A stretch of DNA of 64,000 nucleotides. It comes from Niveispirillum cyanobacteriorum (GTDB lineage Bacteria > Pseudomonadota > Alphaproteobacteria > Azospirillales > Azospirillaceae). Made by a program: the position numbers and the translations under genes. The stretch is taken from NCBI RefSeq assembly GCF_002868735.1, contig NZ_CP025611.1:490501-554500 (forward strand). The letters run 5' to 3'. Below the pieces are notes generated by a model that was not told the DNA's origin, ran no database searches, and was given only the letters and a program-made list of their open reading frames with translations. Positions within the stretch are counted from its first letter, which is position 1, and each line of letters starts with the position of its first letter. Shown here piece after piece: positions 35,871 through 52,886 of this stretch.

Positions 35871-35879
35871 GCGACTACC

Positions 35880-35913
35880 CCTTGCGGGTCCGGTGGGGAC
35901 CGGATCCGCAAGG
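35880..35913. repeat. Strong hairpin between permeases 1 and 2
   Basis: CCTTGCGG/CCGCAAGG (35880-35887 with 35906-35913) and TCCGGT/ACCGGA (35889-35894 with 35899-35904) form a 14-bp stem with a one-base mismatch. It begins 9 bases after the stop and has no U-tract. It may tune expression or mRNA stability within the operon. Confidence 0.6.
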
Positions 35914-35954
35914 ATTTCCTGTTTCAGGGATGGGGCTACCAAGAGGGGGTAGAA

Positions 35955-38447
35955 ATGCTTCGCAACTGGATCATGGTGGCTCTGCGCACGCTGATGCGTC
36001 ACCGTCTGCACGCCATATTGAACCTGTCAGGCCTGGCCGTGGGGCTGGCCGCGTGCCTGTTGATCCTGCTGTTCGTGCGCAACGAGACGGGCTATGACCG
36101 GTTCTTCAAGGATGCCGACCGCATCTATCAGGTGACGCTGGAATGGCGGGTGCCCGGCCGCAAGCCTGAGCGCGGAGCCTATACCCAGATGGGTTTTGGT
36201 CCCGCCTTTAAAAATGCACATCCAGATGTGCAGGATTTCACCCGCTTCATCCAAAGCCGCGCCATCATCTCCACGGGTGACCGGCAATTCTATGAATGGA
36301 CCTTCACGGTCGATCCCACCTTCCTGCAAATCTTCGATTTCCCGCTGCTGGCGGGGGATGCTGCGACGGCACTGACCGATCCCTATTCGGTGGTCCTGAC
36401 CGAAGAGATGGCGCGGAAATATTTCGGCGATACGCCGGCCCTGGGCCAGACGTTGAGCCTGGACCATAAGCACGCATTGAAGGTCACGGCGGTGGTCGCC
36501 AGCCTGCCGGCCAACACGCATCTGGATTTCGGCATTCTGCTGCCCATGGGTCATCCTGCCGGGACCTGGATGATCGACCAGGAAAAGAACTGGGGCAACA
36601 CACAGGGCCAGACCTATCTGCGCCTCAAGCCGGGTGCGTCGGTGGCGCCGTTGCTGGCCGGTATCCCGGATTGGGTCAAGCGTACCTTCACGCCGATCCA
36701 GACGCCGAGCGGCCCGATCGATCTCTCTGCCCTGGCCTTCCCGGATCTGCGCCCCCTGACCAGCATCCATACTGATCCGACGGCGGGCGATGTGACGCCG
36801 GGTATCAGCCGGGCGGAATTGACCACCTTCACGGCGGTCGCGTTCCTGGTGCTGATTATCGCCTGCATCAATTTCATGAACCTCGCCACCGCGCGCGCCA
36901 CCCAGCGGGCGCGGGAGGTCAGCGTGCGCAAGGTGGTGGGCGCCAGCCGGACACAGTTGGTGACGCAGTTCCTGGGCGAAAGCCTGTTTATGGCAGCGTT
37001 GGCGCTGATTGTGGCTATTGCACTGGTTGAAATCGCGCTTCCCGGATTCAGTTCTTTCCTGGGTAAGGAACTGACGCTCGATTTCGCGCGGGATTCAATG
37101 CTGTTGCCGATGCTGATCGGGTTGGCGCTGCTGGTCGGTGTGGGCGGCGGGGCTTATCCGGCCTTCCTGCTCTCCTCCTTCAATCCGGCCCAGACCATGA
37201 AAAGCGCGTCCGGCGGCACCAGTGGCGGGTCCGGCCGGCTGCGCGCGGTGCTGGTGGTGGTGCAGTTCGCCATCTCCATCGCGCTGATGGTGGCCACCTC
37301 GGTCGTCTATGGTCAGTTTATTTATGCCCAGCATAAGAACCTGGGCTACGACACCGAAAATGTCGTGATCATCGGGCATTTCCAGGATGAAGGCGTGCGG
37401 GAGAAGACGCAGACCTTCATCGACATGCTGCGCGCCGATCCCAATGTGGCCGGTGTGGGCGTGGCGGGCCATATTCCGGGCGATGGCGGCGAAAACAACA
37501 CCATGATCACGCCGCTGACCGGGACCAAGCCCGAAAACCATGTCATGCGCCAGGACAGTGTCGGCCCCGGCTTCTTTGAAGCCTTGGGCATGCGCATGAT
37601 TGCCGGTCGCGCCTTCGACCAGACCCGGCCCACCGATCTGGTGCAACGTCCGGATTGGATGAAACAGAACCAGCCGCCGCCGGAGAGCACCAAGGAACTG
37701 CTGCTGCCCATGGGTGTCGTGCTGAATGAAAGTGCCGTGAAGGCCCTTGGCTATGAAAGCCCGGCGGCAGCGCTGGGTCAGCAGGTGAAGATCATGGACA
37801 ACATGACCACCTTCCTGATGGGTACTGTCATCGGCGTGGTGGCGGATTTCCACTACCGCTCCGTCCATGAACCGATCCGCGCTGTCATGTATATCAGCGA
37901 CGAAGGTCGCCACCATGCCATGGCCGTGCGCGCCAAGGCCGGGCAGATGCAGGCGGTGGTGGACAAGATTGACCGCGTCTGGGCCGAACTGGTTCCCGAC
38001 CGCCCGATCGAGCGCAGCTTCTTCGATATCAACATCGCCAACCAGTATCAGCGCGAACAGAAGACCTCGCAGATGTTCGCGACCTTTGCCGGGCTGGCGA
38101 TCTTCATCTCCTGCCTGGGTCTCTATGGTCTGGCCAGCTTCACTGCCGAACGCCGGACCAAGGAGATCGGCCTGCGCAAGGTGCTGGGCGCCAGTGTGCC
38201 GGACATTGTCCGCCTGCTGGTCTGGCAGTTCTCCAAGCCGGTGCTGGTGGCAAACCTCATCGCCTGGCCCGTGGCCTGGTTCTGCATGGACCGCTGGCTG
38301 TCGGATTTCACCTACCGGATCGACCTGAACCCGCTGCTGTTCTTAGGCGCCGGATCAGTGGCGCTGGCCATCGCCTGGGTGACGGTCGGCCTGCATGCGG
38401 CCCGCGTGGCACAGGCAAAGCCGGTGAAGGCATTGCGTTACGAGTGA
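35955..38447 (+). CDS. MacB-like FtsX-fold ABC permease 2
   Basis: 830 residues from MLRNWIMVALRTLMRHRLHA, with GGGGG upstream. Same double MacB-PCD/FtsX layout as permease 1, with motifs REVSVRKVVGASRTQLV and KEIGLRKVLGASVPDIV. It is closest to permease 1 over the whole length, including long stretches of near-identical DNA at the 3' end (about 38120-38280). The two periplasmic domains (about residues 45-280 and 455-690) diverge most, which is where substrate or adaptor contacts are expected. It lies 84 bases after permease 1, with the hairpin at 35880 in the gap. Confidence 0.93.
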   Translation: MLRNWIMVALRTLMRHRLHAILNLSGLAVGLAACLLILLFVRNETGYDRFFKDADRIYQVTLEWRVPGRKPERGAYTQMGFGPAFKNAHPDVQDFTRFIQSRAIISTGDRQFYEWTFTVDPTFLQIFDFPLLAGDAATALTDPYSVVLTEEMARKYFGDTPALGQTLSLDHKHALKVTAVVASLPANTHLDFGILLPMGHPAGTWMIDQEKNWGNTQGQTYLRLKPGASVAPLLAGIPDWVKRTFTPIQTPSGPIDLSALAFPDLRPLTSIHTDPTAGDVTPGISRAELTTFTAVAFLVLIIACINFMNLATARATQRAREVSVRKVVGASRTQLVTQFLGESLFMAALALIVAIALVEIALPGFSSFLGKELTLDFARDSMLLPMLIGLALLVGVGGGAYPAFLLSSFNPAQTMKSASGGTSGGSGRLRAVLVVVQFAISIALMVATSVVYGQFIYAQHKNLGYDTENVVIIGHFQDEGVREKTQTFIDMLRADPNVAGVGVAGHIPGDGGENNTMITPLTGTKPENHVMRQDSVGPGFFEALGMRMIAGRAFDQTRPTDLVQRPDWMKQNQPPPESTKELLLPMGVVLNESAVKALGYESPAAALGQQVKIMDNMTTFLMGTVIGVVADFHYRSVHEPIRAVMYISDEGRHHAMAVRAKAGQMQAVVDKIDRVWAELVPDRPIERSFFDINIANQYQREQKTSQMFATFAGLAIFISCLGLYGLASFTAERRTKEIGLRKVLGASVPDIVRLLVWQFSKPVLVANLIAWPVAWFCMDRWLSDFTYRIDLNPLLFLGAGSVALAIAWVTVGLHAARVAQAKPVKALRYE

Positions 38448-38480
38448 CATTTCAAGGGATTGAGTGGGGAGGGCGATATC

Positions 38481-40949
38481 ATGCTGAAGAACTGGGTCCT
38501 GGTGGCCATCCGTAATCTGCTGCGGCACAAGCTGTACACGGCCATCAATGTCATCGGTCTGGCCGTGGGTCTGGCCAGTTGCCTGATGATTATGCTGCAT
38601 GTCCGGGACGAACTGTCCTATGACGCCTGGGTGCCCGATGCCGACCGCATCGTGCGTGTCCATACCAGCTATGAGATACCGGGCCGCGCCCCCTTCAATA
38701 CCGTCCGCTCGGCGGGCAAAATGATGGAGGCCCTCACCACCGCCTATCCCGAACAGGTGGAGGTGGCGGCCCGCATGTTCCCCTATGATACCTCCATCCT
38801 GCGCGACGGTACCGTCATTCCGCAGACCGTGACCTATACGGACCCGGCGGCCCTTGCCATTTTCGGCCTGAAATTCCTGGAAGGTGATGCGGCAACGGCC
38901 CTGTCGGACCCGTCATCGCTGGTGTTGACGCAAAGTGCGGCGCGCAAATATTTCGGCGACGCCGATCCCATCGGTCGCACCCTGACCATCTGCTGTATCG
39001 GTCCCGACCGGTATGACCACCGTGTCACGGCGGTGATCGCCGACCTGCCGCTCAACACGCATCTCAAGGTGGAGATGCTGGCCCCCGTGGTGCCGCAGCG
39101 TCTGGCCGCCTTTCCCCAGGTCCTGGACACCTGGACCTCGGTGAACGTCTTCACCTATCTGAAGCTCCGCAGCACCAATGACATCGCCCGGCTGGCCGAC
39201 GACAATGCCGCCTTCATCGACCGGATGATCCCCAACAAAAACAACAATGTCCGCACCTCTGACAGCACGCGCCAGCATTTCATGCCCATCCGCGATATCC
39301 GCCTGCACGCCAAACAGCAGGCCGGCGATATCGGCGACATGAAGCCAGCGGGCGATGCCGGTCTGGTGACGGCCCTCTCCATGGTGGCCCTGCTGATCCT
39401 GGCGCTGGGCTGCGTGAACTTCACCAACATGGCTATCGCCCGTTCCTCCCTGCGCGGGCGGGAGGTGGCGGTGCGCAAGGTACTTGGCGCACGCCGCCGC
39501 TCCCTGGTGGCACAGTTCCTGACCGAAGGGTCGGTGATGGTGGTGCTATCCATCCTGGTGGCGTTGGGCCTGATGGAACTGGCCCTACCGGCGTTCAATG
39601 GCGTGACGGGCAAGGACCTGTCGATCCCGCTGCTGGACCCGCTGTTCCTGTCGGCGCTGCTGGGCCTGTCGCTGCTGGTCACCCTGCTGGGGGGTGCCTA
39701 TCCGGCGCTGTATCTGTCGGGGTTCCAGCCGGCCCGCATCCTGAAGGGTGAAGACGCCGCCGATGGCGGTGGCGCGCGGCTGCGGCAATTGCTGGTGGTG
39801 ATGCAGTTCGCGGTGGCCATCGGCCTGTCGATCATCACCCTGGTCGTCTATCGCCAGACCATTTTCGCCACCAATGCCGAACTGGGTTTTGACCGGCAGC
39901 ATGTGCTGGCCCTGCGCAACCTGGGCGGGGCGGGGTTCCAGTCGACGCGGGAAGCCGTGATGGAACAGGTGCGCCGCCTGCCCGGCGTGACGGCGGTCGC
40001 CCTGTCCTCCGACGTGCCGACCGACAATAACGAAAACAACATGATCTTCACGCTGGAAGGCTCCGGTGAGAAGGGGCAGGTGTTGAATTACCAGAGCCTG
40101 GGTGACGGGTTCATGGAACTGTACAAGGTCGCCCCCGTGGCCGGCCGCGTCTTCAACCCCTCCTTCGGCACCGATCTGATCCGCCCGCCGGCAGAGGGCG
40201 AAACGGGTCAGGCCACGGCCATGATCAACGAGGCGGCGGCCCGCCTGCTGGGCTTCGCCACCAATGCCGATGCGCTGGGCCGTGTCCTGAAGACCAAGAC
40301 GTTGGGCAACGCACCTTTCGACCTCACCATCGTCGGCGTCATCCCGGATATCCGGTTCCGGTCCCTGAAATACGGGATACAGCCGACCGTAATATTCCAG
40401 GCCGAACGCCAGTTCGACACGCTGTCCATCCGTTTCGATGGGCGCGACCCGTCGGCGCTGCTGTCGCAGGTGCAGTCGCTCTGGGCCCGCATGATCAATG
40501 ACCGGCCTTTCAACGCCGCCTTTGTCGAGGACATGATCGCCGCCCAGTATAATGAGGAGCGGGTGCAGGCCACCGTCTTCGCCGCCTTCTCCGGCCTTGC
40601 CATTCTGGTCGCCTGCCTGGGTCTCTATGGCCTGTCCGGCTTTGCGGCCCGGCGGCGGACCAAGGAGATCGGCCTGCGTAAGGTGTTCGGTGCCACGGTG
40701 GCACAGATCGTGGCCCTGCTGGTCTGGCAATTCTCCCGCCCCGTCATGATCGCCAACCTCGTCGCCTGGCCCATCGCCTGGTGGCTGCTGCGCGGCTGGT
40801 TGGACGGGTTCGAACAGCGTGTGGACCTGTCGCCGGCCTATTTCGTAGCGGCGGGTCTGACGGCACTGATCATCGCCTGGGTCACCGTCGCCGGCCACGC
40901 CGCCACCACCGCCATGGCCCCGCCCATCAAGGCGCTGCGGCACGAGTAA
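38481..40949 (+). CDS. MacB-like FtsX-fold ABC permease 3
   Basis: 822 residues from MLKNWVLVAIRNLLRHKLYT; the ATG follows a GGGGAGGG box, while the TTG at 38460 is less likely. Same topology as its paralogues, but the most divergent of the five: motifs REVAVRKVLGARRRSLV and KEIGLRKVFGATVAQIV, and FAARRRTKEIG where the others have FTAERRTKEIG. It carries a CCIGPDR insertion in the first periplasmic domain with two adjacent cysteines. It lies 33 bases after permease 2, so it is co-transcribed. Confidence 0.92.
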   Translation: MLKNWVLVAIRNLLRHKLYTAINVIGLAVGLASCLMIMLHVRDELSYDAWVPDADRIVRVHTSYEIPGRAPFNTVRSAGKMMEALTTAYPEQVEVAARMFPYDTSILRDGTVIPQTVTYTDPAALAIFGLKFLEGDAATALSDPSSLVLTQSAARKYFGDADPIGRTLTICCIGPDRYDHRVTAVIADLPLNTHLKVEMLAPVVPQRLAAFPQVLDTWTSVNVFTYLKLRSTNDIARLADDNAAFIDRMIPNKNNNVRTSDSTRQHFMPIRDIRLHAKQQAGDIGDMKPAGDAGLVTALSMVALLILALGCVNFTNMAIARSSLRGREVAVRKVLGARRRSLVAQFLTEGSVMVVLSILVALGLMELALPAFNGVTGKDLSIPLLDPLFLSALLGLSLLVTLLGGAYPALYLSGFQPARILKGEDAADGGGARLRQLLVVMQFAVAIGLSIITLVVYRQTIFATNAELGFDRQHVLALRNLGGAGFQSTREAVMEQVRRLPGVTAVALSSDVPTDNNENNMIFTLEGSGEKGQVLNYQSLGDGFMELYKVAPVAGRVFNPSFGTDLIRPPAEGETGQATAMINEAAARLLGFATNADALGRVLKTKTLGNAPFDLTIVGVIPDIRFRSLKYGIQPTVIFQAERQFDTLSIRFDGRDPSALLSQVQSLWARMINDRPFNAAFVEDMIAAQYNEERVQATVFAAFSGLAILVACLGLYGLSGFAARRRTKEIGLRKVFGATVAQIVALLVWQFSRPVMIANLVAWPIAWWLLRGWLDGFEQRVDLSPAYFVAAGLTALIIAWVTVAGHAATTAMAPPIKALRHE

Positions 40950-40979
40950 TAGATCAACGTCAGGATTGGAAGGTGGGGC

Positions 40980-43421
40980 ATGGTAAGGAACTGGCTGATG
41001 GTGGCGGTGCGCAACCTCATGCGTCACCGGCTTTATACGGCGATCAATGTCCTGGGGCTGACGGCGGGGTTGGCGGCGGCCTTGCTGATTGCCGTGTTTG
41101 TCCGGCATGAGCTGTCGTTCAATGACCGGTTCGCCAATGTCGACAGTACATGGCGCCTCAACCGCATCCTGCTGATCAATGGCCGCGCGCCGGAGCCGAC
41201 GGCGTCGCAGGCCATCCCCCTGGCCCCCGCCCTGAAACAGAGCTTCCCGGAGGTGGTACAGGCGGTCCGTGTGGCCCGCGTGCGCGAAGTGGTGCGCCGG
41301 GACGGGGACAGCCTTTACCAACTGTTCTCCGCCGTCGATCCTGACTATTTCGACATTTTCGACTGGCGCTTTCTGGCCGGTGATCCGGCATCGGCCCTGA
41401 CACAGCCCAACAGCGCCGTCCTGACGGTGGCGACGGCGGAAAAGCTGTTCGGCACCACCAATGTCCTGGATCGGACCATCGAGCTAGGGTCCGGCATCAC
41501 CCTGCGCGTGACGGGCGTGATCGAAAATCCGCCCGTCAATGTCACCCACAAACCCGAAGCGCTGATCGCCCTCTCCACACCGCTGCCCTCCATCGACCGG
41601 GCGCGGGATCATTGGAACTGGAACTGGATCGACACCTATGTCCGCCTCGCCCCTGGCACCGATGTGGCCCGGCTGGAGGCGGCCTTGCCCGACTTCGTGC
41701 GCCGGAACAATCCCAACGCGGTGGAGGATGAAGGCCAGGGTGACCGCAATGTCCTGACACTTCAGAAACTGCGCGACGTCCATACCGCCCCCTTATCTGA
41801 TGACGAGGGGACCAGCATGGCCGTTATCACCAGCCTGACGGCGCTGGCCGCCGTCATCCTGGCCATCGCCGCGGTGAATTTCGTCAATCTGGCGACGGCG
41901 CGGGCCAGCATGCGGGCGCGGGAGGTGGCGATGCGCAAGGCGCTGGGCGCGCCGCGCCGGCTGCTGGTCCTGCAATTCCTGGGGGAAAGCCTGCTGCTGA
42001 CCTTCCTGTCGGGCCTGATGGCCCTGGCTTTGGTGGAGGTGACGCTGCCTTTGTTTCAGGATGCGATGTCGGTCTCCATCGATCCCGCCTATCGTGAGCT
42101 TTGGGCCATGGCCGTCATCGTGGCCGCCCTGTCCTTCGCGCTGGGTATTCTGGGCGGCCTCTATCCGGCCCTGGTCCTTTCGGGCTTCCGGCCCGCCCAT
42201 GTCTTGCGCGGCAACAGCAAGGGCAATGCGGGCAGCGGGCGGCTGCGCACCATCCTGGTGGTGGCACAGTTTGCCGTGGCCATCGCGCTGACCGTCGGCA
42301 CCCTGGTCGTGCTGCAACAGGCGCGTTATGCCAGCAGTCAGCAATTAGGTTTCGACAAGGATAATGTCGTCCTGCTGCGCGGGGCCGACAACAAGGCCGT
42401 GAAGCCGAAACTGGCGGCGCTGAAGCAGCGGCTGCTGGCTGATCCCGGCGTGATTGCGGTGGCGGGTGCCCCCTGGGTTCCGTCGGATGGGGCCGAAACC
42501 ACCAGCGCCTATCGCCGCACCGATGACGGACAGAATGTCAGCGTCACCATCCGCACCGACAATGTCGATTACGGCTATTTCGAAGCGCTGGGTGCCCGCC
42601 TGCTGGCTGGCCGCACCTTTGATGAGAAATACGGGGCCGAAGCCGCCGCCGATGTACCATCGGGACAGCGGATGGAGGGCCGCACCGCGTCCGCCCTGCT
42701 GTCCCTGTCGGCGGTGCGACAGCTGGGCTGGGCCAGTCCGCAGGACGCCATTGGCCGGACATTGCTCTATCCACAGGATGAGGGCGATGTGACCCTGACC
42801 ATCGTCGGCGTCGTCGATGATCTGCAATACCGCACGGCGCGCGACCGCACCGTTGCGTCCGTCTATCAGATCGACCAGGGCCAGATCGGCACCCTGATGG
42901 TGCGGATCAAGCCTGATGCCGCACCCGCCGTGCTGAACCGCATCGATGCGCTGTGGCGGGAGATGGTGCCCGAGGTACCGATACGCCGGCAGTTCCTGGA
43001 TGAACGGATCGAGCAGCTTTACGCGCTGGATGTCCGGCAGGGCAAATTGTTTGCGGCCTTCGCGGGGCTGGCCGTGATCATCGCCTGCCTGGGCCTGTTC
43101 GGTCTGGCCAGTTTCACCGCCGAACGCCGGACCAAGGAGATCGGGATCCGGAAGGTGCTGGGTGCCAGCGTCGGGGACCTTGTGCGCCTGCTGGTCTGGC
43201 AGTTCTCGCGCCCCGTGCTGATCGCCAATCTGGTCGCCTGGCCGCTGGCCTGGTTTGGGCTCAGCCGCTGGCTGGAGGGGTTTGCCTATCGTGTGGCGCT
43301 TGACCCGCTGCTGTTCGTGGCGGCGGGGCTGGGGGCCTTGATCATCGCCTGGGCCACGGTCGCGGGCCATGCGGCGCGGGTGGCGGCGGAAAAGCCGGTT
43401 CGCGCGCTGCGGTACGAATAG
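40980..43421 (+). CDS. MacB-like FtsX-fold ABC permease 4
   Basis: 813 residues from MVRNWLMVAVRNLMRHRLYT with a GGAAGG box. Two MacB-PCD/FtsX repeats, motifs REVAMRKALGAPRRLLV and KEIGIRKVLGASVGDLV. It groups with permease 5 by shared segments (VNLATARA.MRAREVA, QQARYASSQQLGFDKDNVVL and LFAAFAGLAVIIACLGLFG). The second periplasmic domain has a disordered-looking loop (DEKYGAEAAADVPSGQRMEG). It is 30 bases after permease 3. Confidence 0.93.
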   Translation: MVRNWLMVAVRNLMRHRLYTAINVLGLTAGLAAALLIAVFVRHELSFNDRFANVDSTWRLNRILLINGRAPEPTASQAIPLAPALKQSFPEVVQAVRVARVREVVRRDGDSLYQLFSAVDPDYFDIFDWRFLAGDPASALTQPNSAVLTVATAEKLFGTTNVLDRTIELGSGITLRVTGVIENPPVNVTHKPEALIALSTPLPSIDRARDHWNWNWIDTYVRLAPGTDVARLEAALPDFVRRNNPNAVEDEGQGDRNVLTLQKLRDVHTAPLSDDEGTSMAVITSLTALAAVILAIAAVNFVNLATARASMRAREVAMRKALGAPRRLLVLQFLGESLLLTFLSGLMALALVEVTLPLFQDAMSVSIDPAYRELWAMAVIVAALSFALGILGGLYPALVLSGFRPAHVLRGNSKGNAGSGRLRTILVVAQFAVAIALTVGTLVVLQQARYASSQQLGFDKDNVVLLRGADNKAVKPKLAALKQRLLADPGVIAVAGAPWVPSDGAETTSAYRRTDDGQNVSVTIRTDNVDYGYFEALGARLLAGRTFDEKYGAEAAADVPSGQRMEGRTASALLSLSAVRQLGWASPQDAIGRTLLYPQDEGDVTLTIVGVVDDLQYRTARDRTVASVYQIDQGQIGTLMVRIKPDAAPAVLNRIDALWREMVPEVPIRRQFLDERIEQLYALDVRQGKLFAAFAGLAVIIACLGLFGLASFTAERRTKEIGIRKVLGASVGDLVRLLVWQFSRPVLIANLVAWPLAWFGLSRWLEGFAYRVALDPLLFVAAGLGALIIAWATVAGHAARVAAEKPVRALRYE

Positions 43422-43432
43422 GGGGGGTGGAT

Positions 43433-45874
43433 ATGCTGAAGAACTGGATCATGGTGGCGTTGCGCAACCTGCTGCGCCACAAGCTTTATACCAGCATCAA
43501 TGTGCTGGGGCTGGCCGCCGGACTGGCGGCGGCCCTGCTGATCACGGTCTTTGTGCGCCATGAACTGTCGTACAACAGCCTGTTCACCGATGCGGACAAG
43601 ACGCTGCGCGTCGTTCGCACTGAATATCTGCCGGGTCGCCCGCCCGCAACCCATGCCGCCATGTCCATGCCCACGGCAGCAGCCCTGAAACAGGAATTCT
43701 CCGAGATCGAAACGGTCGTCCGTTTCGGGCGCACGCGGGAGATTGTGCGCCGGGGCGATGAAAGCCTCTATGTCAGCTTTCATGCCGTGGATGTCGATTA
43801 TCTGCGGCTGTTCGACTGGCCGTTCCTGTCGGGTGATCCGCGCACGGCCCTGTCGCAGCCCAACAGCACCGTCCTGACCCAGGCGCTGGCCACCAAGATT
43901 TTCGGGGCACAGGAGGCGGTGGGCCGCACCGTAACCCTGATCGATGGCCGCACGCTGACGGTCACGGGCGTTATCCAGGACCCGCCCTCCAACGTGACGG
44001 ACGAGGTGGAGGCACTGGTCTCCATCGCCACGCCGTTGCCCTTCCTGGAACGGCAGCGGGAGAACTGGGGCAGCAACTGGCTGCACATCTATCTGCGGCT
44101 GGCGCCCGGTGCCGATGTTGAGCGGTTGAAGACTGATCTGAAGGGCTTTATGGCCCGTGTGCGCCCGAGCGCCAACCCGCAGGATGATGGTGGCTACCGC
44201 GCCGAACTCAGCCTGCAGCCGCTGCTGGACATTCGTACCCATCCGCTGCCCGGCGGCATCGGCACCAGCATGGCGGTGATCACCGGCCTAATCGCGCTGG
44301 CAGTGTTGATCATGGCCATTGCGGCCATCAATTTCGTCAATCTCGCAACGGCGCGGGCCACCATGCGGGCGCGGGAAGTGGCCCTGCGCAAGACGCTGGG
44401 CGCACCCCGCCGCCTGATCATCTTGCAGTTCCTGGGCGAAAGCCTGCTGCTAACCCTGCTGGCCGGTCTGCTGGCCATGGCCGTGGTGGAACTGGGTCTG
44501 GACCCGTTCCAGTCGGCCCTGGGGATCAAGATGGACCCGGCCTTCCATGCCATGGGCCTGCTGGGGGCCATCACGCTGGGCCTGTCGGTGCTGCTGGGCC
44601 TGCTGGGCGGGCTTTATCCGGCCTTCGTCCTGTCGGGTTTCCGTCCGGCACAGGTTCTGCGCTCTAACAAATCCGCCGGTGTCGGTGGCGGGCGGTTGCG
44701 CGCAGCCCTGGTGGTGGCACAGTTCGCGGTGGCCATCGGCCTGACAGTGGGCACGCTCGTCGTGCTGCAACAGACCCGCTATGCCAGCAGCCAGGAACTG
44801 GGCTTCGACAAGGAGAATGTCGTCCTGTTGCGCGGATTTGAGTATGAAGCCGCGCGGTCCAAGCTGGAAACCTTCAAGACGCGGCTGCTGGCCGATCCGG
44901 CGGTGGTGTCGGTGGCGGGTGCGCCATGGGCCCCGTCCGACCCGTCCGAACGTACCTCCACCTACGGTGTCATCACGGGCGACCGGAACGAGACGATGAC
45001 GGTTCGCACCGAGCCGGTGGATTTCGGCTATTTCGAAACGCTGGGCGCCACCATGCTGGCGGGCCGCAGCTTCGACAAGGCACGCGGCGCCGATGAGGCG
45101 AAATTCGTCCCCGAAGGCAGCAGGCTGGAGGGGCGGGCCGCCGCCACCATCATCTCCGCGACCGCGGTACAGCAGTTCGGCTGGGGCAGCCCGGCAGAGG
45201 CCATCGGCCGCACCATCAATTTCCCGCAGGATGAAGGCGACATCACCTTGCAGGTAGTCGGCGTCGTCACCGACCTTCAGTATAAATCCGCCCGCAACAG
45301 CACGGTTGCCACCATCTATCACGCGGAACCGTCGGAGGCGCGGGTGCTGATGGTTCGCATCCGTCCGGGCGACGTATCTGCCACCTTGAACCGCATCGAC
45401 AGCCTGTGGCGGGAGATGGTGCCCGATGTGCCGGCGCGTCGGCATTTCCTGGATGAACGGGTGGAGCTGCTTTATGCCGACGATATCCGCCAGGGCAAGC
45501 TGTTCGCGGCCTTCGCGGGGCTGGCCGTGATCATCGCCTGCCTGGGCCTGTTCGGACTGGCCAGCTTTACCGCCGAACGGCGGACGAAGGAGATCGGCAT
45601 CCGCAAAGTGCTGGGCGCGTCCGTCCTGCAATTGGTGCGGCTGCTGGTCTGGCAATTCTCCCGCCCCGTACTGATCGCCAACCTGATCGCCTGGCCCGTC
45701 GCCTGGTACGGACTGAACCGCTGGCTGCAGGGCTTCGCCTATCGCGTGGACCTGGACCCGCTGCTGTTCCTGGCCGCTGGTCTGGGGGCCATGGTGATCG
45801 CCTGGGCCACTGTGGCCGGACATGCGGCACGCGTGGCCGTGGAAAAGCCGGTCAAGGCCCTGCGCTACGAATAA
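43433..45874 (+). CDS. MacB-like FtsX-fold ABC permease 5
   Basis: 813 residues from MLKNWIMVALRNLLRHKLYT; the ATG at 43433 follows a G-rich box (a GTG two codons upstream is possible). Motifs REVALRKTLGAPRRLII and KEIGIRKVLGASVLQLV. It is the closest relative of permease 4. It ends the operon, and its last 23 bases overlap the convergent mobA gene. No terminator is visible between them. Confidence 0.93.
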   Translation: MLKNWIMVALRNLLRHKLYTSINVLGLAAGLAAALLITVFVRHELSYNSLFTDADKTLRVVRTEYLPGRPPATHAAMSMPTAAALKQEFSEIETVVRFGRTREIVRRGDESLYVSFHAVDVDYLRLFDWPFLSGDPRTALSQPNSTVLTQALATKIFGAQEAVGRTVTLIDGRTLTVTGVIQDPPSNVTDEVEALVSIATPLPFLERQRENWGSNWLHIYLRLAPGADVERLKTDLKGFMARVRPSANPQDDGGYRAELSLQPLLDIRTHPLPGGIGTSMAVITGLIALAVLIMAIAAINFVNLATARATMRAREVALRKTLGAPRRLIILQFLGESLLLTLLAGLLAMAVVELGLDPFQSALGIKMDPAFHAMGLLGAITLGLSVLLGLLGGLYPAFVLSGFRPAQVLRSNKSAGVGGGRLRAALVVAQFAVAIGLTVGTLVVLQQTRYASSQELGFDKENVVLLRGFEYEAARSKLETFKTRLLADPAVVSVAGAPWAPSDPSERTSTYGVITGDRNETMTVRTEPVDFGYFETLGATMLAGRSFDKARGADEAKFVPEGSRLEGRAAATIISATAVQQFGWGSPAEAIGRTINFPQDEGDITLQVVGVVTDLQYKSARNSTVATIYHAEPSEARVLMVRIRPGDVSATLNRIDSLWREMVPDVPARRHFLDERVELLYADDIRQGKLFAAFAGLAVIIACLGLFGLASFTAERRTKEIGIRKVLGASVLQLVRLLVWQFSRPVLIANLIAWPVAWYGLNRWLQGFAYRVDLDPLLFLAAGLGAMVIAWATVAGHAARVAVEKPVKALRYE

Positions 45875-46724: not shown

Positions 46725-48383
46725 ATGCCCAATTCCTTCGATCTGTCCAAGCCGATTGTGACCGGCCAGACCCATGGCAGCCTGACAGTCGTCGGCACGG
46801 GTATCCGGTCGATCTCGCATTTCACGCAGGAGGCCATCGGCCATATCCGTGATGCCGATGTCGTGTTTTTTGGTGTTCCTGATGGTGTTACGGCCAGTTT
46901 CATCCGCGAACTGAACCCCAATTCCTATAATCTGGCCCTGCATTATGGCGAGGACAAGCGCCGCCTGATTACCTATGTGCAGATGGCTGAACTGATCCTG
47001 CGCGCCGTGCGCGAGGGCAAGCGCGTCACCGCCGTTTTCTACGGCCACCCCGGCTTCTTCGTGTCGCCCGCCCGCCGCGCCCTGAATATCGCGCGCAAGG
47101 AAGGCCACCGGACGGAGATGCTGCCCGGCATTTCCTCCACCGACTATCTGTTTGCCGACCTGCGCATTGATCCGTCCGTCCATGGTTGCCAGATACTGGA
47201 TGCGACGGACCTGCTGTTGCGTAATCGGCCAGTCGTGACCTCAAGCCACGTCGTGCTTCTGCAGGTGGGTTCCGTTGGCGACAGTTTCTTCTCCGCCACG
47301 GGCTTCAAGAACAGCAAGCGGGCCATCCTGTTTGAGCGGCTGATCGAGATTTATGGCGAGAACCATCCCGCTTATCACTATGTCGGCGCCACGTTCCCTG
47401 GTCTCGACAGCCAGATCATCCGTCGGCCCTTGAAGGCCTATCGTGACCCCAAGATATTGGCTTCGGTACATTTCGCTTGTTCGGTCTATCTGCCGCCGGC
47501 AGAGGTTCTGCCTGTGGATGCCGCGATGGCGGAGCGCATGGGCGTCACGCCGCCGGGCAGCTTGGCCGCCCGCGTCGGTGATAATCTGGAAAAGGTTCCC
47601 GCGGGCGATTACGGCCCGTTCGAACTGGACGCCATCGCCCGACTGGACAAGGAACCAGTCGGTGGGCAGGAACGCCGGACCTCGAAGGCGCTTTACCGTA
47701 TCCTGTCCCAGATGTCCGCCAATCCCAGTGCTGCCGAGGCGTATCGCCGCGATCCCAAGACCTATGTCAGCCTGTTCGCCGGTCTGACGGATGATGAGAA
47801 GCAGGCGCTGACCGGTCGTAGCGCGGGGGCGCTGCATACGGCGTCTCTGCAGATTGTGCGCGCGCCGGCTGTCGTGGCCGCCCCGATCCCGGCCGGCGAT
47901 GTGCCGTCTTCTCCCATCAATGCCGTCACGGCCAGCGACCCTGCTGAACTGAACGATCCGGTCGAACAGAATGATGGTGGCGAACTGAACGACGCCGCCG
48001 AACTGAATGATCCCAGTGAGCTGAACGACGCCGCCGAGTTGAACGACGCTGCTGAGTTGAACGACGCTGCTGAGTTGAACGACGCCGCCGAGCTGAACGA
48101 CGCTGCTGAGTTGAACGACGCCGCCGAGCTGAACGACGCTGCTGAGTTGAACGACGCCGCCGAGCTGAACGACGCTGCTGAGTTGAATGACGCCGCCGAG
48201 CTGAACGACGCTGCTGAGTTGAACGACGCTGCTGAGTTGAATGACGCCGCCGAGCTGAACGACGCTGCTGAGTTGAACGACGCTGCTGAGTTGAACGACG
48301 CCGCCGAGCTGAACGACGCTGCTGAGTTGAATGACGCTGCCGAGCTGAACGACGCTGCCGAACCTGTTGATCACAAGAAGTGA
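46725..48383 (+). CDS. Fused borosin: alpha-N-methyltransferase with binding domain and hexapeptide-repeat core
   Basis: 552 residues. Residues about 18-262 are a tetrapyrrole-methylase-fold SAM enzyme with the features of borosin methyltransferases such as fungal OphMA and bacterial SonM: SLTVVGTGIRS, a Tyr/Arg cluster (Y74, R80, Y84), VFYGHPGFFVSPARRAL, the motif EMLPGISSTDYLFADL, then DATDLLLRN and LLQVGSVGDS. In that family the enzyme methylates backbone amides of a precursor peptide. Residues about 318-372 form a helical domain (ILSQMSANPSAAEAYRRDP, then LFAGLTDDEKQALTG) like the borosin-binding/clasp region. A linker rich in Pro/Ala (373-407) leads to 23 hexapeptides (408-545) and the tail EPVDHKK. 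So enzyme and substrate appear fused. No protease or cyclase is adjacent. Modification of the repeats is inference. Confidence 0.88.
   Translation: MPNSFDLSKPIVTGQTHGSLTVVGTGIRSISHFTQEAIGHIRDADVVFFGVPDGVTASFIRELNPNSYNLALHYGEDKRRLITYVQMAELILRAVREGKRVTAVFYGHPGFFVSPARRALNIARKEGHRTEMLPGISSTDYLFADLRIDPSVHGCQILDATDLLLRNRPVVTSSHVVLLQVGSVGDSFFSATGFKNSKRAILFERLIEIYGENHPAYHYVGATFPGLDSQIIRRPLKAYRDPKILASVHFACSVYLPPAEVLPVDAAMAERMGVTPPGSLAARVGDNLEKVPAGDYGPFELDAIARLDKEPVGGQERRTSKALYRILSQMSANPSAAEAYRRDPKTYVSLFAGLTDDEKQALTGRSAGALHTASLQIVRAPAVVAAPIPAGDVPSSPINAVTASDPAELNDPVEQNDGGELNDAAELNDPSELNDAAELNDAAELNDAAELNDAAELNDAAELNDAAELNDAAELNDAAELNDAAELNDAAELNDAAELNDAAELNDAAELNDAAELNDAAELNDAAELNDAAELNDAAELNDAAEPVDHKK
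47946..48359 (+). repeat. 18-base tandem repeat encoding 23 hexapeptides of the putative borosin core
   Basis: Twenty-three in-frame 18-base units: ELNDPV, EQNDGG, ELNDAA, ELNDPS, then nineteen ELNDAA. Units differ by synonymous changes only in the later part (GCC/GCT, CTG/TTG, AAC/AAT), in patterns that suggest duplication of multi-unit blocks. Each unit carries one Glu and one Asp, giving about -46 net charge. Confidence 0.95.
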
Positions 48384-48422
48384 TGCATCCACCATGCCGC
48401 TCTGCGCGGGCATTTAACTAAC

Positions 48423-48470
48423 ACCAACCGGCGCCGTGGTATGCTTGCATGCTGCGGCGCTATTGGTTTT
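48423..48470 (+). terminator. Probable terminator of the borosin gene
   Basis: ACCAA and GCGCCG pair with CGGCGC and TTGGT (left arm 48423-48436, right arm 48454-48466) around a 17-base loop, ending in TTTT. It lies 39 bases after the stop. Confidence 0.6.
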
Positions 48471-48609
48471 GCGTCTCGCCTTTGGTTTGAATAATGATAT
48501 GGAGGGAGGGGCGCATTTGTTCATCTGATCCCTGCCTTCGTCGTCTGGAAAGGACGACCATACTTTGGTTAGTCTTTGTGAACCCTCGAATGGTGCATTG
48601 CGGAGTCCA

Positions 48610-51486
48610 ATGCGTAACATCGTGACAGACTTCTTCGGGCGTCCGGACGATATCGCTTGGTTGCTGGCGAATATCGACCAGGAGCAGGACTTGTTTCAGT
48701 CCTGTCGGCACAGGGTCGTCTTGGCGTGGTATCTGAGGCAGCGTGATACCGCTGCGGCCCTTTCGATTCTCGATGGGCTGGATAAGGAAGACTTTCTCGC
48801 CGTGCTGGAGGCGACACCGGCCTTGCGGGGGCTCTGGTACTTGGCGCGCATCGACTGTCTGCGTCTCCTGGCGCAGGTACCGGAGGCGCTGCGTCTGCTG
48901 CCCTACGCGCAGGCAGCTTTTCAGGAGGCCGGTGATCTTGTGGGTCTGGGTGATTGTGCTTTCGCGGCCGCAGAACTCTGTCTGACACAAGGCGATGCTC
49001 AAGGAGCATCGCACCTGCTTGAACGTGCCGTGGGTCTCTATCAGGAAGGCGGGGATGCCAAGCGTTCATTGATCGCTGCTGGTTGGCTGGCCTATCAGCA
49101 AAGCTATCTTGATGCCAAAGCGGCGGACGGACGTTGGGCCGAGGCGCTGGCCGCCAATAATTGGCTGGGCGATCCGGCGGTGGAGGCCTATGCCCGTACC
49201 TTCCATGGCGGCATTGCCTTTCAGTATGGGGATTTCCCTGCATCAATCCGCCACTGGCAAGAAGCTTATGATCATGCCCAGGCGGCGGGAGCGGTGTGGC
49301 TGGCCATCATCCTGGCGACGGTGACGGGGTCGGCCTATGCTAACCTGTTCGACCTTCCGACCGCGCTGGAATGGAAGGAGAAGGCCTATGCCTTGGCCAA
49401 GCCTACGGGCTGGCCTGAGGCACTGGGAACCACCTTGTCGTCAATGGCGGAGACAACGACCAGCCTGGGCGATCATGCGCGGGCGGGCTCCCTGTTTGAG
49501 GAGGCGCTGCCTTATCTGGACCGGCTGACCAATACCCGCCGTCATTTCATCGCCTATTCCGCCTATGGGCGGCTTTGCTTGGAAACCGGGGTGCCGGAAC
49601 GGGCGGTTGAGTGGTTTGAAAAGGCGGGTGTCATCGCCCGTAATCTTGGTCATCCTGATACGGAACGCTTGCACAGCAGTGCGATGACGTCGGCTCTGCT
49701 CAAACTGAACCGCGTCGGCGAGGCCGAGGCGATGATCATGGGCACGCTCAATCAACCGGGTTTCCGCGGAAATCCCTATTACGAGGTCGAAGCGCTGCGG
49801 TCCTTGGCGGCCGTGCGGCGTGCGCAGGATGGGGGCGATCCGTCGCGGGCGATTGCCATACTGGAACAGGCGGTGGCCAAAGGCACCAGTATGGACGGGC
49901 TCACCATCCGGGCCGATATCTATACTGAACTCGCCCGTGATTATGAGGCGGCAGGTGACTATCGTCAGGCCCTGCACTATGAGCGCTGCGCCCGGGCAAG
50001 CTGGCAGCGCAATTTCGACCAGCAGAATGGTTCCCGCATCCAGGCCTTGCAGGTTCGTTTCGACACAGCCCGGGCCAAATCCGACGCAGAGCATCACCGG
50101 ATGCTGGCCGGGGCGGAGGCTGCGCGCGCCGTCGAACTGGACCGTGCCAACCAGACGCTGGAACGGCTGGGTGTCATCGGACAGGAGATCACGGCGCGGC
50201 TGGACAGCGAGTCCGTTTTCACAACCTTGTCGCGCCATCTGCATGACCTGATGCCCACCAACACCTTGTTCGTGGGGCTGAAGGACGAGGCCAATGAGGT
50301 CATCGACATCCGGTACCGGATGGAGGATGGCAAGCGCCTGCCGTCGCGTCAGGTGCCGCTGGCATCCGACAATCTGTCCGCCCGCTGCGTGCGCGACAGC
50401 GAGGAAATCCTGGTGGCCTGGGGGGAGCGGACCAACCCCAACTCCGTGCCCGGCACCCGTCATATGCGCACAGTCCTGTTCCGCCCTCTGACCCTGGGGG
50501 ACCGGGTACTGGGGGTGGTGTCGGTGCAGAGTGACAAGCCCGATGCCTATGGCCCCCGCGAATTGCTGATCTTCCGGACCATCTGTGCCTACGGCGCTAT
50601 CGCCATGGCCAATGCGGAGGCGTATCAGCAACTGGACCGCGCCGTCGCCGAAACGCGGGAGGCGTTGCAGCGCCTGGTGCAGCAGGAAAAGATGGCTGCC
50701 CTGGGCCAGCTTGTCGCCGGTGTGGCGCATGAGGTGAATACGCCGCTGGGTGTTACGCTGTCGGCTGTGTCGCAACTGAACGACAGCGTCCGCCATCTGC
50801 GTGACCTGATCAAGCGCGGCAGCCTCACCCGCGCCCTGCTGACCGAGACGCTGGATAATGGACAGGATCTGGCCGCCCTGGCCCAGCGCAACGTGGTCCG
50901 CGCCGCCGACATGATCCGCACATTCAAGGGCGTGGCCGTTGACCATGGCAGTGACGAACGCCGCATCTTTGATTTGGATGAATACCTGACCGAGATCATG
51001 TCCCTGGTCCGTGCTCGGGTCACAGGCAATGGCAACCGGCTGGAGCTTGATGTCGTCTCGGTTCAGATGGACACCTATCCCGGCGCGCTGGCGCAGGTGA
51101 TCACCAATCTGGTGACCAATGTTGCCGACCATGCCTATGCGCCCGACCGTCCGGGCCGCATCCTGGTGCAGGCAAGGCGGATCGATTCAATGGTGGTGGA
51201 AATTGCGGTGCAGGATCACGGTGCCGGCATTCCGCCCGATATCCTGCCAAAGGTTTTCGACCCGTTCTTCACGACCCGCCGCGCATCGGGCAGCATGGGT
51301 CTGGGTCTGCATGTCGCGTTCAATCAGGTTACACAGCGTTTGAATGGCAATATCGTCATCGACAGTGTGCCGGGGCGCGGCACCGTGGCCATTCTGCGCA
51401 TCCCGCGCGAGGTATCGGGTCACATCCCGACCCGCATCCTGCCCACGCCGGCAGGTGCTGAGATGGATATCACACCAGCGCGTTGA
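48610..51486 (+). CDS. Soluble TPR-GAF histidine kinase
   Basis: 958 residues from MRNIVTDFFGRPDDIAWLLA, with GGAG six bases upstream; a TTG start 15 codons earlier is possible. Residues about 30-480 are TPR-like helical repeats (e.g. ALRLLPYAQAAFQEAGDLVG). A coiled coil precedes a GAF domain (about 525-670: FTTLSRHLHDLMPTNTLFVG). A dimerisation coil carries the phospho-acceptor H707 in LVAGVAHEVNTPLG, then HATPase with NLVTNVADHAYAP, DHGAGIP and GSMGLGLHVA. No membrane segment, so it senses a cytoplasmic signal or protein. No response regulator is adjacent. It lies between the borosin and the peptide cluster and its 3' end overlaps the first peptide gene by 17 bases, convergently. Confidence 0.9.
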   Translation: MRNIVTDFFGRPDDIAWLLANIDQEQDLFQSCRHRVVLAWYLRQRDTAAALSILDGLDKEDFLAVLEATPALRGLWYLARIDCLRLLAQVPEALRLLPYAQAAFQEAGDLVGLGDCAFAAAELCLTQGDAQGASHLLERAVGLYQEGGDAKRSLIAAGWLAYQQSYLDAKAADGRWAEALAANNWLGDPAVEAYARTFHGGIAFQYGDFPASIRHWQEAYDHAQAAGAVWLAIILATVTGSAYANLFDLPTALEWKEKAYALAKPTGWPEALGTTLSSMAETTTSLGDHARAGSLFEEALPYLDRLTNTRRHFIAYSAYGRLCLETGVPERAVEWFEKAGVIARNLGHPDTERLHSSAMTSALLKLNRVGEAEAMIMGTLNQPGFRGNPYYEVEALRSLAAVRRAQDGGDPSRAIAILEQAVAKGTSMDGLTIRADIYTELARDYEAAGDYRQALHYERCARASWQRNFDQQNGSRIQALQVRFDTARAKSDAEHHRMLAGAEAARAVELDRANQTLERLGVIGQEITARLDSESVFTTLSRHLHDLMPTNTLFVGLKDEANEVIDIRYRMEDGKRLPSRQVPLASDNLSARCVRDSEEILVAWGERTNPNSVPGTRHMRTVLFRPLTLGDRVLGVVSVQSDKPDAYGPRELLIFRTICAYGAIAMANAEAYQQLDRAVAETREALQRLVQQEKMAALGQLVAGVAHEVNTPLGVTLSAVSQLNDSVRHLRDLIKRGSLTRALLTETLDNGQDLAALAQRNVVRAADMIRTFKGVAVDHGSDERRIFDLDEYLTEIMSLVRARVTGNGNRLELDVVSVQMDTYPGALAQVITNLVTNVADHAYAPDRPGRILVQARRIDSMVVEIAVQDHGAGIPPDILPKVFDPFFTTRRASGSMGLGLHVAFNQVTQRLNGNIVIDSVPGRGTVAILRIPREVSGHIPTRILPTPAGAEMDITPAR

Positions 51487-51622
51487 ACGTGGCGGCCAGG
51501 AACAGGGCAACCGACAGGACCGTGGCAATCTCAAAGGCGCTGGCGCCATCCTTGATGAAGCTGCCGAAGCCGGAGAGGACTTCATCGGCGTCATGGGCGG
51601 CGGCGTTGATATAGGCGGACAT
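51470..51622 (-). CDS. 50-residue peptide, type A (copy 1)
   Basis: Encodes MSAYINAAAHDADEVLSGFG and on to ATVLSVALFLAATFNALV: a short helical polar head with acidic residues, then a hydrophobic C-terminus of about 18 residues. GGAG lies 8-11 bases before the ATG. It is one of five genes in 1.4 kb that all encode exactly 50 residues. It follows the type-B gene at 51666 on the same strand and should be read from the sigma-54 promoter at 51861. The 3' end overlaps the kinase gene by 17 bases. It resembles copy 52323 in almost every residue. Function unknown. Confidence 0.8.
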   Translation of the reverse strand: MSAYINAAAHDADEVLSGFGSFIKDGASAFEIATVLSVALFLAATFNALV

Positions 51623-51665
51623 GGGCTTTCTCCGTAAATCCGGTGGTGTTTCGCGTTGCTGCGGA

Positions 51666-51818
51666 TCAGAGCATCGTGTGCAGGGCCAGGGTCAGCAGAC
51701 CACCGATAGCCAGTGCCGTCGCCGCTTCGATCAGATCGGCAGCTGTGGGCAGAGAGGCGAACAGGCTGCTCAGGATGCTGTCATCGGCGGCATTGATCTG
51801 GCTCGTCAGGCTCGTCAT
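51666..51818 (-). CDS. 50-residue peptide, type B (copy 1)
   Basis: Encodes MTSLTSQINAADDSILSSLF and on to ALAIGGLLTLALHTML. GGAG precedes the start by 6 bases. It is first in the unit driven by the sigma-54 promoter at 51861. Its counterpart at 52692 differs at a minority of positions, and the DNA changes between them are largely third-position, so the protein is under selection. Layout: N-terminal polar helix, an S-L-P-T break at residues 28-31, hydrophobic C-terminal helix. Candidate secreted or membrane-active peptide; no family recognised. Confidence 0.8.
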   Translation of the reverse strand: MTSLTSQINAADDSILSSLFASLPTAADLIEAATALAIGGLLTLALHTML

Positions 51819-51860
51819 TTTCATCTCCGTGGGTTCGTGTCTTTCGATAACCCTGTAAGA

Positions 51861-51876
51861 GCAAAGGATGTGCCAA
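51861..51876 (-). promoter_or_regulatory. Sigma-54 promoter of peptide unit 1
   Basis: On the minus strand TTGGCACATCCTTTGC: the -24 element with one deviation (A for G), 4-base spacer and -12 TTGC. It lies about 43 bases before the type-B start. The downstream leader is nearly the same as in unit 2, including GACACGAACCCACGGAG. Confidence 0.85.
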
Positions 51877-51990
51877 GTGCCTTTTTGCCGTATTCTGGAA
51901 AATAATCGAGGGTGGTTGGCGCTGTTCAGCCTACAAAATGGCGAAAAAGACGATTAGTGGTCGAAATTGAGACCGGATATAGGTTTGTAC

Positions 51991-52006
51991 TGTCCGAAAA
52001 TGAACA
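51991..52006. promoter_or_regulatory. Upstream activator palindrome of peptide unit 1
   Basis: TGTCCGAAAATGAACA matches the exporter-operon palindromes at 30906 (TGTCCG, 4-base centre, yGrACA). It lies about 115 bases upstream of the -24 element, almost the same distance as in unit 2. Confidence 0.65.
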
Positions 52007-52120
52007 GCGATGATGGCGCTACTGTTCGCCTGTGGACGCTGCCGGTGGGGCAGCCGCGTTCCCCTTTATGGATGTCGATGCAGGCCCGCCACGTGTTCGC
52101 GTCTCAACATTCCTGAAACG

Positions 52121-52146
52121 CAAAAAGCCCGCCGGACGGGCGGGCT
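52121..52146 (-). terminator. Terminator of peptide unit 2
   Basis: Stem AGCCCGCC/GGCGGGCT (52126-52133 with 52139-52146) is followed on the minus strand by TTTTG. It lies about 180 bases past the stop of the last gene of the unit. Confidence 0.75.
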
Positions 52147-52322
52147 GTGCGGCTGCGCGGAGGGGCCGTGATCGGCGGTCGCGCATGATGTGGGCTTTGA
52201 GTAGTGGGTGCCTTGGGGCTGCCCCGGTGCCGGCGATGCGGCGGTCAGCGGTTTCATCGTGCCGGGCCATCCCGGCCACTCCCTTCTTCCCTTCCGCTGA
52301 ATACAGGGGGAAGGGAGGGGGA

Positions 52323-52475
52323 TCAGATCAGGGCGTGCAGGATGGTCGCGATAAAGGCGGCGACGGACAGGACCGTGGCAGCTTCGACAGTGCTGACGCC
52401 ATCCTTCACAAAGGCACCGAAGCCGGACAGGACTTCATCGGCATCGTGGGCGGCGGCGTTGATCATGGCGGACAT
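52323..52475 (-). CDS. 50-residue peptide, type A (copy 2)
   Basis: Encodes MSAMINAAAHDADEVLSGFG, then AFVKDG and a hydrophobic end ATVLSVAAFIATILHALI. A GGAGAG box lies upstream. Closest relative is the peptide at 51470, sharing NAAAHDADEVLSGFG and the K-D-G turn. Last gene of unit 2, downstream of the A-prime and B peptides. Confidence 0.8.
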   Translation of the reverse strand: MSAMINAAAHDADEVLSGFGAFVKDGVSTVEAATVLSVAAFIATILHALI

Positions 52476-52506
52476 GGGGGAACTCTCCTTCAGGCGGGTG
52501 GGGGGA

Positions 52507-52659
52507 TCAGAACAGGGCGTTCAGCAGGACAGCCATGAAACCGGCGACAGCGACGATGGCAACGGCTTCGACAGCATGGCTCAGCGTGGGAAGGGAAGCG
52601 CGGAAGCCGGACAGAACGTCGTTGGCGTCATGGGCGGCGGCATTGAGATAGGCAGACAT
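52507..52659 (-). CDS. 50-residue peptide, A/B hybrid type
   Basis: Encodes MSAYLNAAAHDANDVLSGFR, then ASLPTLSHAVEAVAIV and ends VAGFMAVLLNALF. The head is of type A and the middle ASLPT...VEA is of type B, so it looks like a recombinant or intermediate. An AGAGAAA purine box precedes the ATG. It lies 31 bases from the type-A gene and 32 bases from the type-B gene, in one presumed transcript. Confidence 0.8.
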   Translation of the reverse strand: MSAYLNAAAHDANDVLSGFRASLPTLSHAVEAVAIVAVAGFMAVLLNALF

Positions 52660-52691
52660 AATTTTCTCTTTCTCTTCAGTGTGTTGGTGGA

Positions 52692-52844
52692 TCAGAGCAT
52701 CGTGTGCAGGGCCAGCGTCAGCAGGCCGCCGATGGCCAGGGCCGTCACAGCTTCGATCATTTCTGCGGCCGTCGGCAGGGAGGCCAGGAAGCTGCTCAGC
52801 ATGTTCTCGTCGGCGGCTTCGATCTTGTTCGTCAGGTCGGTCAT
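52692..52844 (-). CDS. 50-residue peptide, type B (copy 2)
   Basis: Encodes MTDLTNKIEAADENMLSSFL, then ASLPTAAEMIEAVTA and ends LAIGGLLTLALHTML; the last 15 residues are the same as in copy 1 at 51666. GGAG lies 6 bases before the start. First gene of unit 2, about 42 bases after the perfect sigma-54 promoter at 52887. The polar head resembles the start of the exporter-operon peptide at 31055 in charge pattern only. Confidence 0.8.
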   Translation of the reverse strand: MTDLTNKIEAADENMLSSFLASLPTAAEMIEAVTALAIGGLLTLALHTML

Positions 52845-52886
52845 TTTCATCTCCGTGGGTTCGTGTCTCTCGATGACCCTGTATTA

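Follow-up and report, generated by a model that had tools for sequence, protein, structure and literature searches.

The locus described here raises the question of why a bacterial peptide methyltransferase carries, fused to its own C-terminus, a long run of acidic repeats, and what the repeats are for. The gene lies on the forward strand of the window, defined here as the entire 64,000-nucleotide stretch of DNA that was analysed.

The fused borosin and its repeat core

The open reading frame at 46725..48383 (+) begins with ATG and encodes 552 amino acids. It matches OphMA with an E value of 1e-73 over residues 16-372, the clasp included, and SonM with an E value of approximately 5e-36 over residues 18-276. 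The initial annotation had proposed a borosin-type methyltransferase, a clasp, and a C-terminal repeat core within one protein, and the OphMA match bears this out. Pfam labels the enzyme TP_methylase (E = 7e-18), and the best corrin methylase match has an E value of only 0.0014; in the profile comparison that the annotation had proposed, the borosins are far ahead of the tetrapyrrole enzymes.

The methyltransferase domain, approximately residues 16-258 (46770..47498, +), was delimited using Pfam, the OphMA alignment, and the reading of key sites. A helical, borosin-binding-like clasp region occupies approximately residues 299-377 (47619..47855, +), and is supported by the alignment to residue 372 and by helices at 299-377 in a structural model of modest confidence. 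The OphMA sites Y66, R72, Y76, Y98, S129, and Q172 are retained, while site 63 is Ala in the window protein. The equivalent KchMA sites (Y73, R79, Y83, Y105, S136, Q179, and Y70) are listed as important catalytic, SAM, and substrate residues (PMC11395268). Six of these seven are retained in 15 of the 15 array-clade proteins; at the seventh (OphMA Y63, KchMA Y70) the residue is Ala, Ser, or Thr. A Y70A change lowers KchMA activity only moderately (PMC11395268).

By sequence comparison the protein is firmly assigned as a fused bacterial borosin with the type III layout. Type III cores consist of acidic residues alternating with others and are fused C-terminally, and KchMA carries up to 11 methylations (PMC11395268). 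The window protein has the same feature, with the strict period as an extra. Because type III cores have been published as acidic, a long acidic core is not new in itself, and the hexapeptide array is a variant of it. The statement in the initial annotation that known fused borosins carry hydrophobic cores is therefore out of date.

Among the closest published proteins is KchMA of Kitasatospora cheerisanensis (WP_084224105.1; PMC11395268), in which a methyltransferase, a clasp, and a long acid-rich C-terminal core are likewise joined in one bacterial protein. Locus L022, which by its species name and residue numbering appears to be KchMA, is 41% identical in the matched part. It differs in having about 400 more residues ahead of the core, in a core that alternates but does not repeat, and in that no kinase was found within the region fetched. 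The domain order is the same as in OphMA (PDB 5n0o). Fungal fused borosins such as OphMA have a short hydrophobic core and a prolyl oligopeptidase partner, whereas the window protein has a 138-residue acidic array and no prolyl oligopeptidase neighbour.

Larger fused borosins were also seen. Two Niveispirillum genomes contain a second, longer copy of approximately 1016-1019 amino acids (L041:7669-10725 and L042:7501-10548) with a DDNDDN-rich poly-Asp/Asn stretch and a further C-terminal domain; the Y63 site is Tyr and the S129 site is Thr. A 1177-amino-acid ORF from outside the class (L085) is a large fused borosin whose acid-rich C-terminal end resembles that of KchMA.

The core array (47946..48359, +) consists of 23 hexapeptides at the C-terminal end, 20 of which are exactly ELNDAA; the other three are ELNDPV, EQNDGG, and ELNDPS. 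Tandem Repeats Finder reports an 18-nucleotide unit in 23.2 copies at 47946-48363. The array of the initial annotation was thus recovered both from the ORF and by reading it unit by unit.

The DNA of the units differs mostly at silent sites, which argues that the array has been kept as protein. All 23 units of the window were used in the count, since picking out the 20 identical peptides biases it. They contain 7 distinct synonymous and 6 non-synonymous changes against an expected synonymous share of 0.28 (p = 0.044, weak alone). The array of G023 has 12 synonymous and 3 non-synonymous changes (p = 5e-6), and that of G009 has 9 and 4 (p = 0.001). The array is under constraint at the protein level, and this is clearer in the arrays of relatives than in the window.

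Structure prediction, which the annotation had proposed for both clasp and repeat, yielded helices for the clasp and no structure for the array (pLDDT approximately 30). This AlphaFold2 model has a mean pLDDT of 50.9, was built on an alignment 6 sequences deep, and was kept out of fold searches.

Relatives and the linked kinase

The gene is present in 18 of the 82 family genomes: nine of 11 Niveispirillum, all seven of genus g2, and one each in g3 and g13. Three of the 385 genomes in the class sample match, two of these being Niveispirillum. In the phylum sample, 15 of 398 genomes match, nearly all with short split-type enzymes.

The repeat unit differs by lineage, with periods of 5, 6, 9, 10, and 13 residues. 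Units include ELNDAA; EQHDAT with EQHDVT; ENHDAG; EDHDAT; and TEEHDA, SEEHIA, with TEEHVA. Period-5 units are EQHET, EQHEA, and EQHVT, and longer ones are EELNEHNDV (9), EQDAAELSSA (10), TEDVQDQNVS (10), and PPSDTDLNVTENV (13). Several of the units contain histidine. Over its last 140 residues the window protein has a net charge of -44, and the other fused relatives read range from -54 to -19, with three of these stopping at a contig break. The arrays of G010 and G003 (loci L028 and L029) are broken by a common non-repeat stretch, SQWDYMLSAGKQ and SGTWDYLLSAAKA.

One relative (G012) is split. A separate ORF carries its core, made of 10 ELSGGELDVA units, and is followed by a methyltransferase with a clasp and then by a TPR-GAF kinase in which no HATPase_c domain was found at E 0.01. 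This pair is presumably RceM/RceA of Rhodospirillum centenum. It is the nearest known repeat core, and unlike the window core it is on its own protein. RceM/RceA has been named type V (PMC11395268).

The gene just downstream of the window borosin (48610..51486, +) encodes a TPR-GAF-HisKA-HATPase histidine kinase, identified using Pfam and proposed here as the cognate sensor; a TTG start at 48565 is possible. The initial annotation made no mention of this kinase or of its variable sensor half. The TPR superhelix covers approximately residues 28-450 (48691..49959, +), and the GAF and kinase domains, the output half, lie at 50209..51411 (+). No clear membrane segment was found in the window kinase. 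Between the two genes, a hairpin is followed by a T-rich stretch (48430..48461, +; fold z-score -3.25), a weak candidate for a terminator or attenuator. Five stretches were folded and three gave z < -2.9, with one cut off and showing nothing. The terminator scan gave 1 site against 1.7 expected in shuffles, which is not above chance. If real, the hairpin might lower kinase output relative to the borosin.

Based on ORF clusters from 17 fetched loci and the window, the kinase is the only neighbour common to all four genera. Three further clusters are common to g3 and g13 only. No cyclase, peptidase, or transporter is among the genes common across the four genera. A GAF-histidine kinase adjoins the borosin in 18 of the 18 family genomes that have one, 14 on one contig and four inferred across contig breaks. 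In these four (G003, G005, G006, and G010), the contig stops within the array, and a second contig carries the remaining end of the array with the kinase behind it. The sensor of the g2 linked kinase is a beta-propeller of two-component type. A search with the window's kinase domain, which distant kinases may escape, gave one weak match in 18 further borosin loci (14 of the phylum sample together with L022, L041, L042, and L043).

The two Niveispirillum genomes that lack the borosin, G001 and G007, lack the orthologous kinase as well; G001 has the paralogue. At the orthologous site of G001, the gene order FtsX, MobA, DNA methyltransferase, and RNase HII is preserved, and both the borosin and the kinase are absent from it. 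The 10 kb fetched for G007 contained, of these genes, the DNA methyltransferase and RNase HII alone. A candidate signal gene beside a sensor kinase, as in a pherotype-like pair, is found in all 18 family genomes that have the borosin, and both genes are absent from G001.

Other genes were noted around the locus. In a g2 locus (L037:5235-9435), genes for an oligopeptide-type binding protein (SBP_bac_5, E = 8e-44) and for a second GAF-kinase lie divergently to the borosin. When G023 and G101 are compared, identity is 58% for the binding protein and 71% for the second kinase, and approximately 98% for the borosin and first kinase. Just past the window kinase (51470-52850, -) are five ORFs of 50-52 amino acids in two related kinds (MSAYxxAAAHDA... 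and MKMTxLT...LPTAA...). Two of the five were scanned and had no Pfam match. Relatives of the MSAYxxAAAHDA kind occur downstream of the locus in G003, G005, G006, G008, and G010, more weakly in G009, and once at the empty site of G001. Upstream (35871-45871, +) is a row of MacB/FtsX-type permease genes, of which 43427-45871 was Pfam-scanned; relatives were seen only in Niveispirillum loci.

Divergence of the sensor half and its possible match to the array

The two halves of the linked kinase differ greatly in their conservation. Between the window genome (G000) and G010, identity is 96.1% in the kinase domain and 47.9% in the TPR, and the arrays are unlike. The corresponding values for a paralogous kinase are 97.2% and 98.0%. 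In 13 of the 28 pairs formed by eight Niveispirillum genomes, the TPR divergence of the linked kinase is more than twice its kinase divergence; for the paralogue in the same genomes, 0 of 28 pairs show this. This control is without G004 and G022; the G004 paralogue falls outside its group in the tree. A variable sensor half with a conserved output half is thus found, with the paralogue control, in Niveispirillum (g1). There is no clear swap in g2, where the sensors of G102 and G103 have diverged yet the array type is the same.

At the DNA level, the block that differs between the window and G010 extends over 47150..50180 (+) and takes in the second half of the methyltransferase, the array, the spacer, and the TPR. 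Its flanks are 92-100% and mostly 90-99% identical. Identity stays at 92-100% along most of the initial 420 bases of the methyltransferase gene, drops through the gene's second half and the array, is 40-76% across the TPR, and climbs to 94% at approximately 50139-50229, the TPR/GAF boundary. Comparable profiles are seen for G008/G003, G008/G006, and G003/G006.

Trees from the different segments are in conflict. TPR residues 1-480 group G010 with G008 (100/100), and a G000 and G010 grouping is rejected (p = 1.5e-5). The GAF-kinase tree places G000, G005, and G010 together (96/97) and rejects G010 with G008 (p = 6e-7). Methyltransferase residues 1-180 group G000 with G010 (100/100) and also reject G010 with G008 (p = 6e-5). 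The clasp tree has no resolved grouping. The groups were named after the distances were known, so the p values are indicative.

The arrays appear to follow the TPR. G010 and G008 have EQH units in common, with array ends EQHVTEK and EQHVTDK. G000 and G005 have ELNDAA and the array end EPVDHKK in common; G005 also resembles the window in sensor type, and the end of its array is AELNDAADLNDAAELNDAA. In a post hoc comparison of nine genomes (36 pairs), the three pairs with TPR identity of at least 0.73 also have the three most similar arrays, whether k is 2, 3, or 4; by our own count, one matching in 1260 would give this if the labels were free. Two of these pairs are also close kin, which leaves G010 and G008 as the informative pair. 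Of seven pairs with kinase identity of at least 0.85, two have like TPRs and like arrays and five have unlike TPRs and unlike arrays. Over all pairs, array similarity and TPR identity show no significant partial rank correlation once kinase identity is taken into account (r 0.02-0.08, p 0.32-0.44), because TPR identity levels off near 0.4-0.5 in all but the like pairs. The change of both repeat unit and sensor half between species suggests a candidate matched signal-and-sensor pair.

The TPR model is a superhelix with a mean pLDDT of 78. The folds that it matches best are peptide-bound LGN/Pins domains (E 2e-8; TM-scores normalised to the model 0.37-0.49), with many TPR proteins next in the list. 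LGN/Pins domains bind Inscuteable or NuMA peptides, and the likeness to them is one of fold only. LGN holds an extended peptide through Asn residues that contact its main chain and Arg residues that contact Glu-X-Glu (PMC3438535). Judging from this fold resemblance, N-methylation would be expected to matter to a sensor that recognises the amides of the main chain. A focus of variation on the TPR groove was not found, concave helices exceeding the outer ones (A > B) in two of 28 pairs. Nor was a positive charge that would suit an acidic ligand, the window TPR having 46 K+R and 61 D+E.

Candidate roles of the array

The reading favoured here, at roughly even odds (probability about 0.5), is that the kinase next to the borosin recognises the N-methylated array as a ligand specific to the lineage. 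The borosin would N-methylate its own array of acidic hexapeptides and, by analogy with OphMA, two chains may methylate each other's arrays. The array, whole or cut, would then bind the TPR sensor of the adjacent kinase, so that the two genes would act as a signal-and-sensor pair. Each lineage would have its own array type with a matching sensor, and the block that holds both could be swapped as a whole, as happens in the pherotype loci of peptide signalling systems.

In the agr and ComQXP pherotype loci, the signal and the sensor half vary together and the output half is conserved. The window system resembles them in its variable candidate signal and sensor half and its conserved output half. 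It differs in that the signal would be a backbone-methylated repeat protein and in that the Niveispirillum sensor is a soluble TPR and not a membrane domain.

The array may instead enter a usual RiPP pathway. It would be cut into many short N-methylated peptides that leave the cell and affect other organisms, while the kinase only controls production and takes its cue from elsewhere. Regulators often adjoin biosynthetic genes, and the binding protein and second kinase of the g2 locus would suit such a pathway. Borosins are, moreover, RiPPs by definition (PMC11395268). A peptidase, cyclase, or transporter is, however, not common across the genera, and this pathway leaves unexplained why hypervariability is restricted to the sensor half and why like arrays occur with like sensors. 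It is considered unlikely, with a real chance of being correct.

The block may also simply be prone to recombination or diversification, with the array and TPR changing for separate reasons and travelling together by adjacency alone. Since the two are adjacent, linkage could move both without any interaction. The variable block is continuous and takes in the clasp and spacer, and the rank correlation given above is not significant. Against this, the block stops at the TPR/GAF boundary and is centred on the core and sensor, and the kinase has been retained beside the borosin in all 18 family genomes that have this gene and is gone with it from G001. Co-travel alone is a doubtful explanation, with a small share of the probability.

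An array that is a material, that is, an acidic, disordered, or metal-binding polymer for storage, buffering, or decoy, with methylation only shielding it from proteases, is improbable. The strongly negative charge, the histidine in several units, and the lack of structure in the model are in keeping with such a polymer, while the linked kinase and the apparently type-matched sensor are left unexplained.

The initial annotation raised a structural beta-helix as an alternative for the repeats, since the unit loosely fits the hexapeptide pattern, and Pfam labels the domain TP_methylase. Such a helix on an ordinary tetrapyrrole methylase is very improbable: the OphMA match (1e-73) leaves the corrin enzymes, at E 0.0014 or worse, far behind, the array is unstructured in the low-depth model, and the relatives' units (EQHET, for example) and periods of 5, 9, 10, and 13 depart from a constant six-residue period with an aliphatic position.

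Within the favoured signal-and-sensor reading, the locus may represent a class of signalling pair in which a self-modifying enzyme makes a backbone N-methylated repeat polypeptide whose main chain and methylation are recognised by a TPR kinase, with lineage types exchanged as a cassette and the borosin having a physiological role within its producer. This wider proposal is tentative, and is held with somewhat less than even confidence. The papers found on borosins with a histidine kinase, quorum sensing, or a tandem repeat do not, at the level of abstracts, describe the present system, and a prior mention is possible.

A product or a role is known for only a few borosins. A core that changes between species, apparently together with the sensor half of the kinase beside it, provides a directly testable candidate role for bacterial backbone N-methylation, and the units ELNDAA, EQHDAT, ENHDAG, EEHDAS, and others are natural alleles with which it may be tested.
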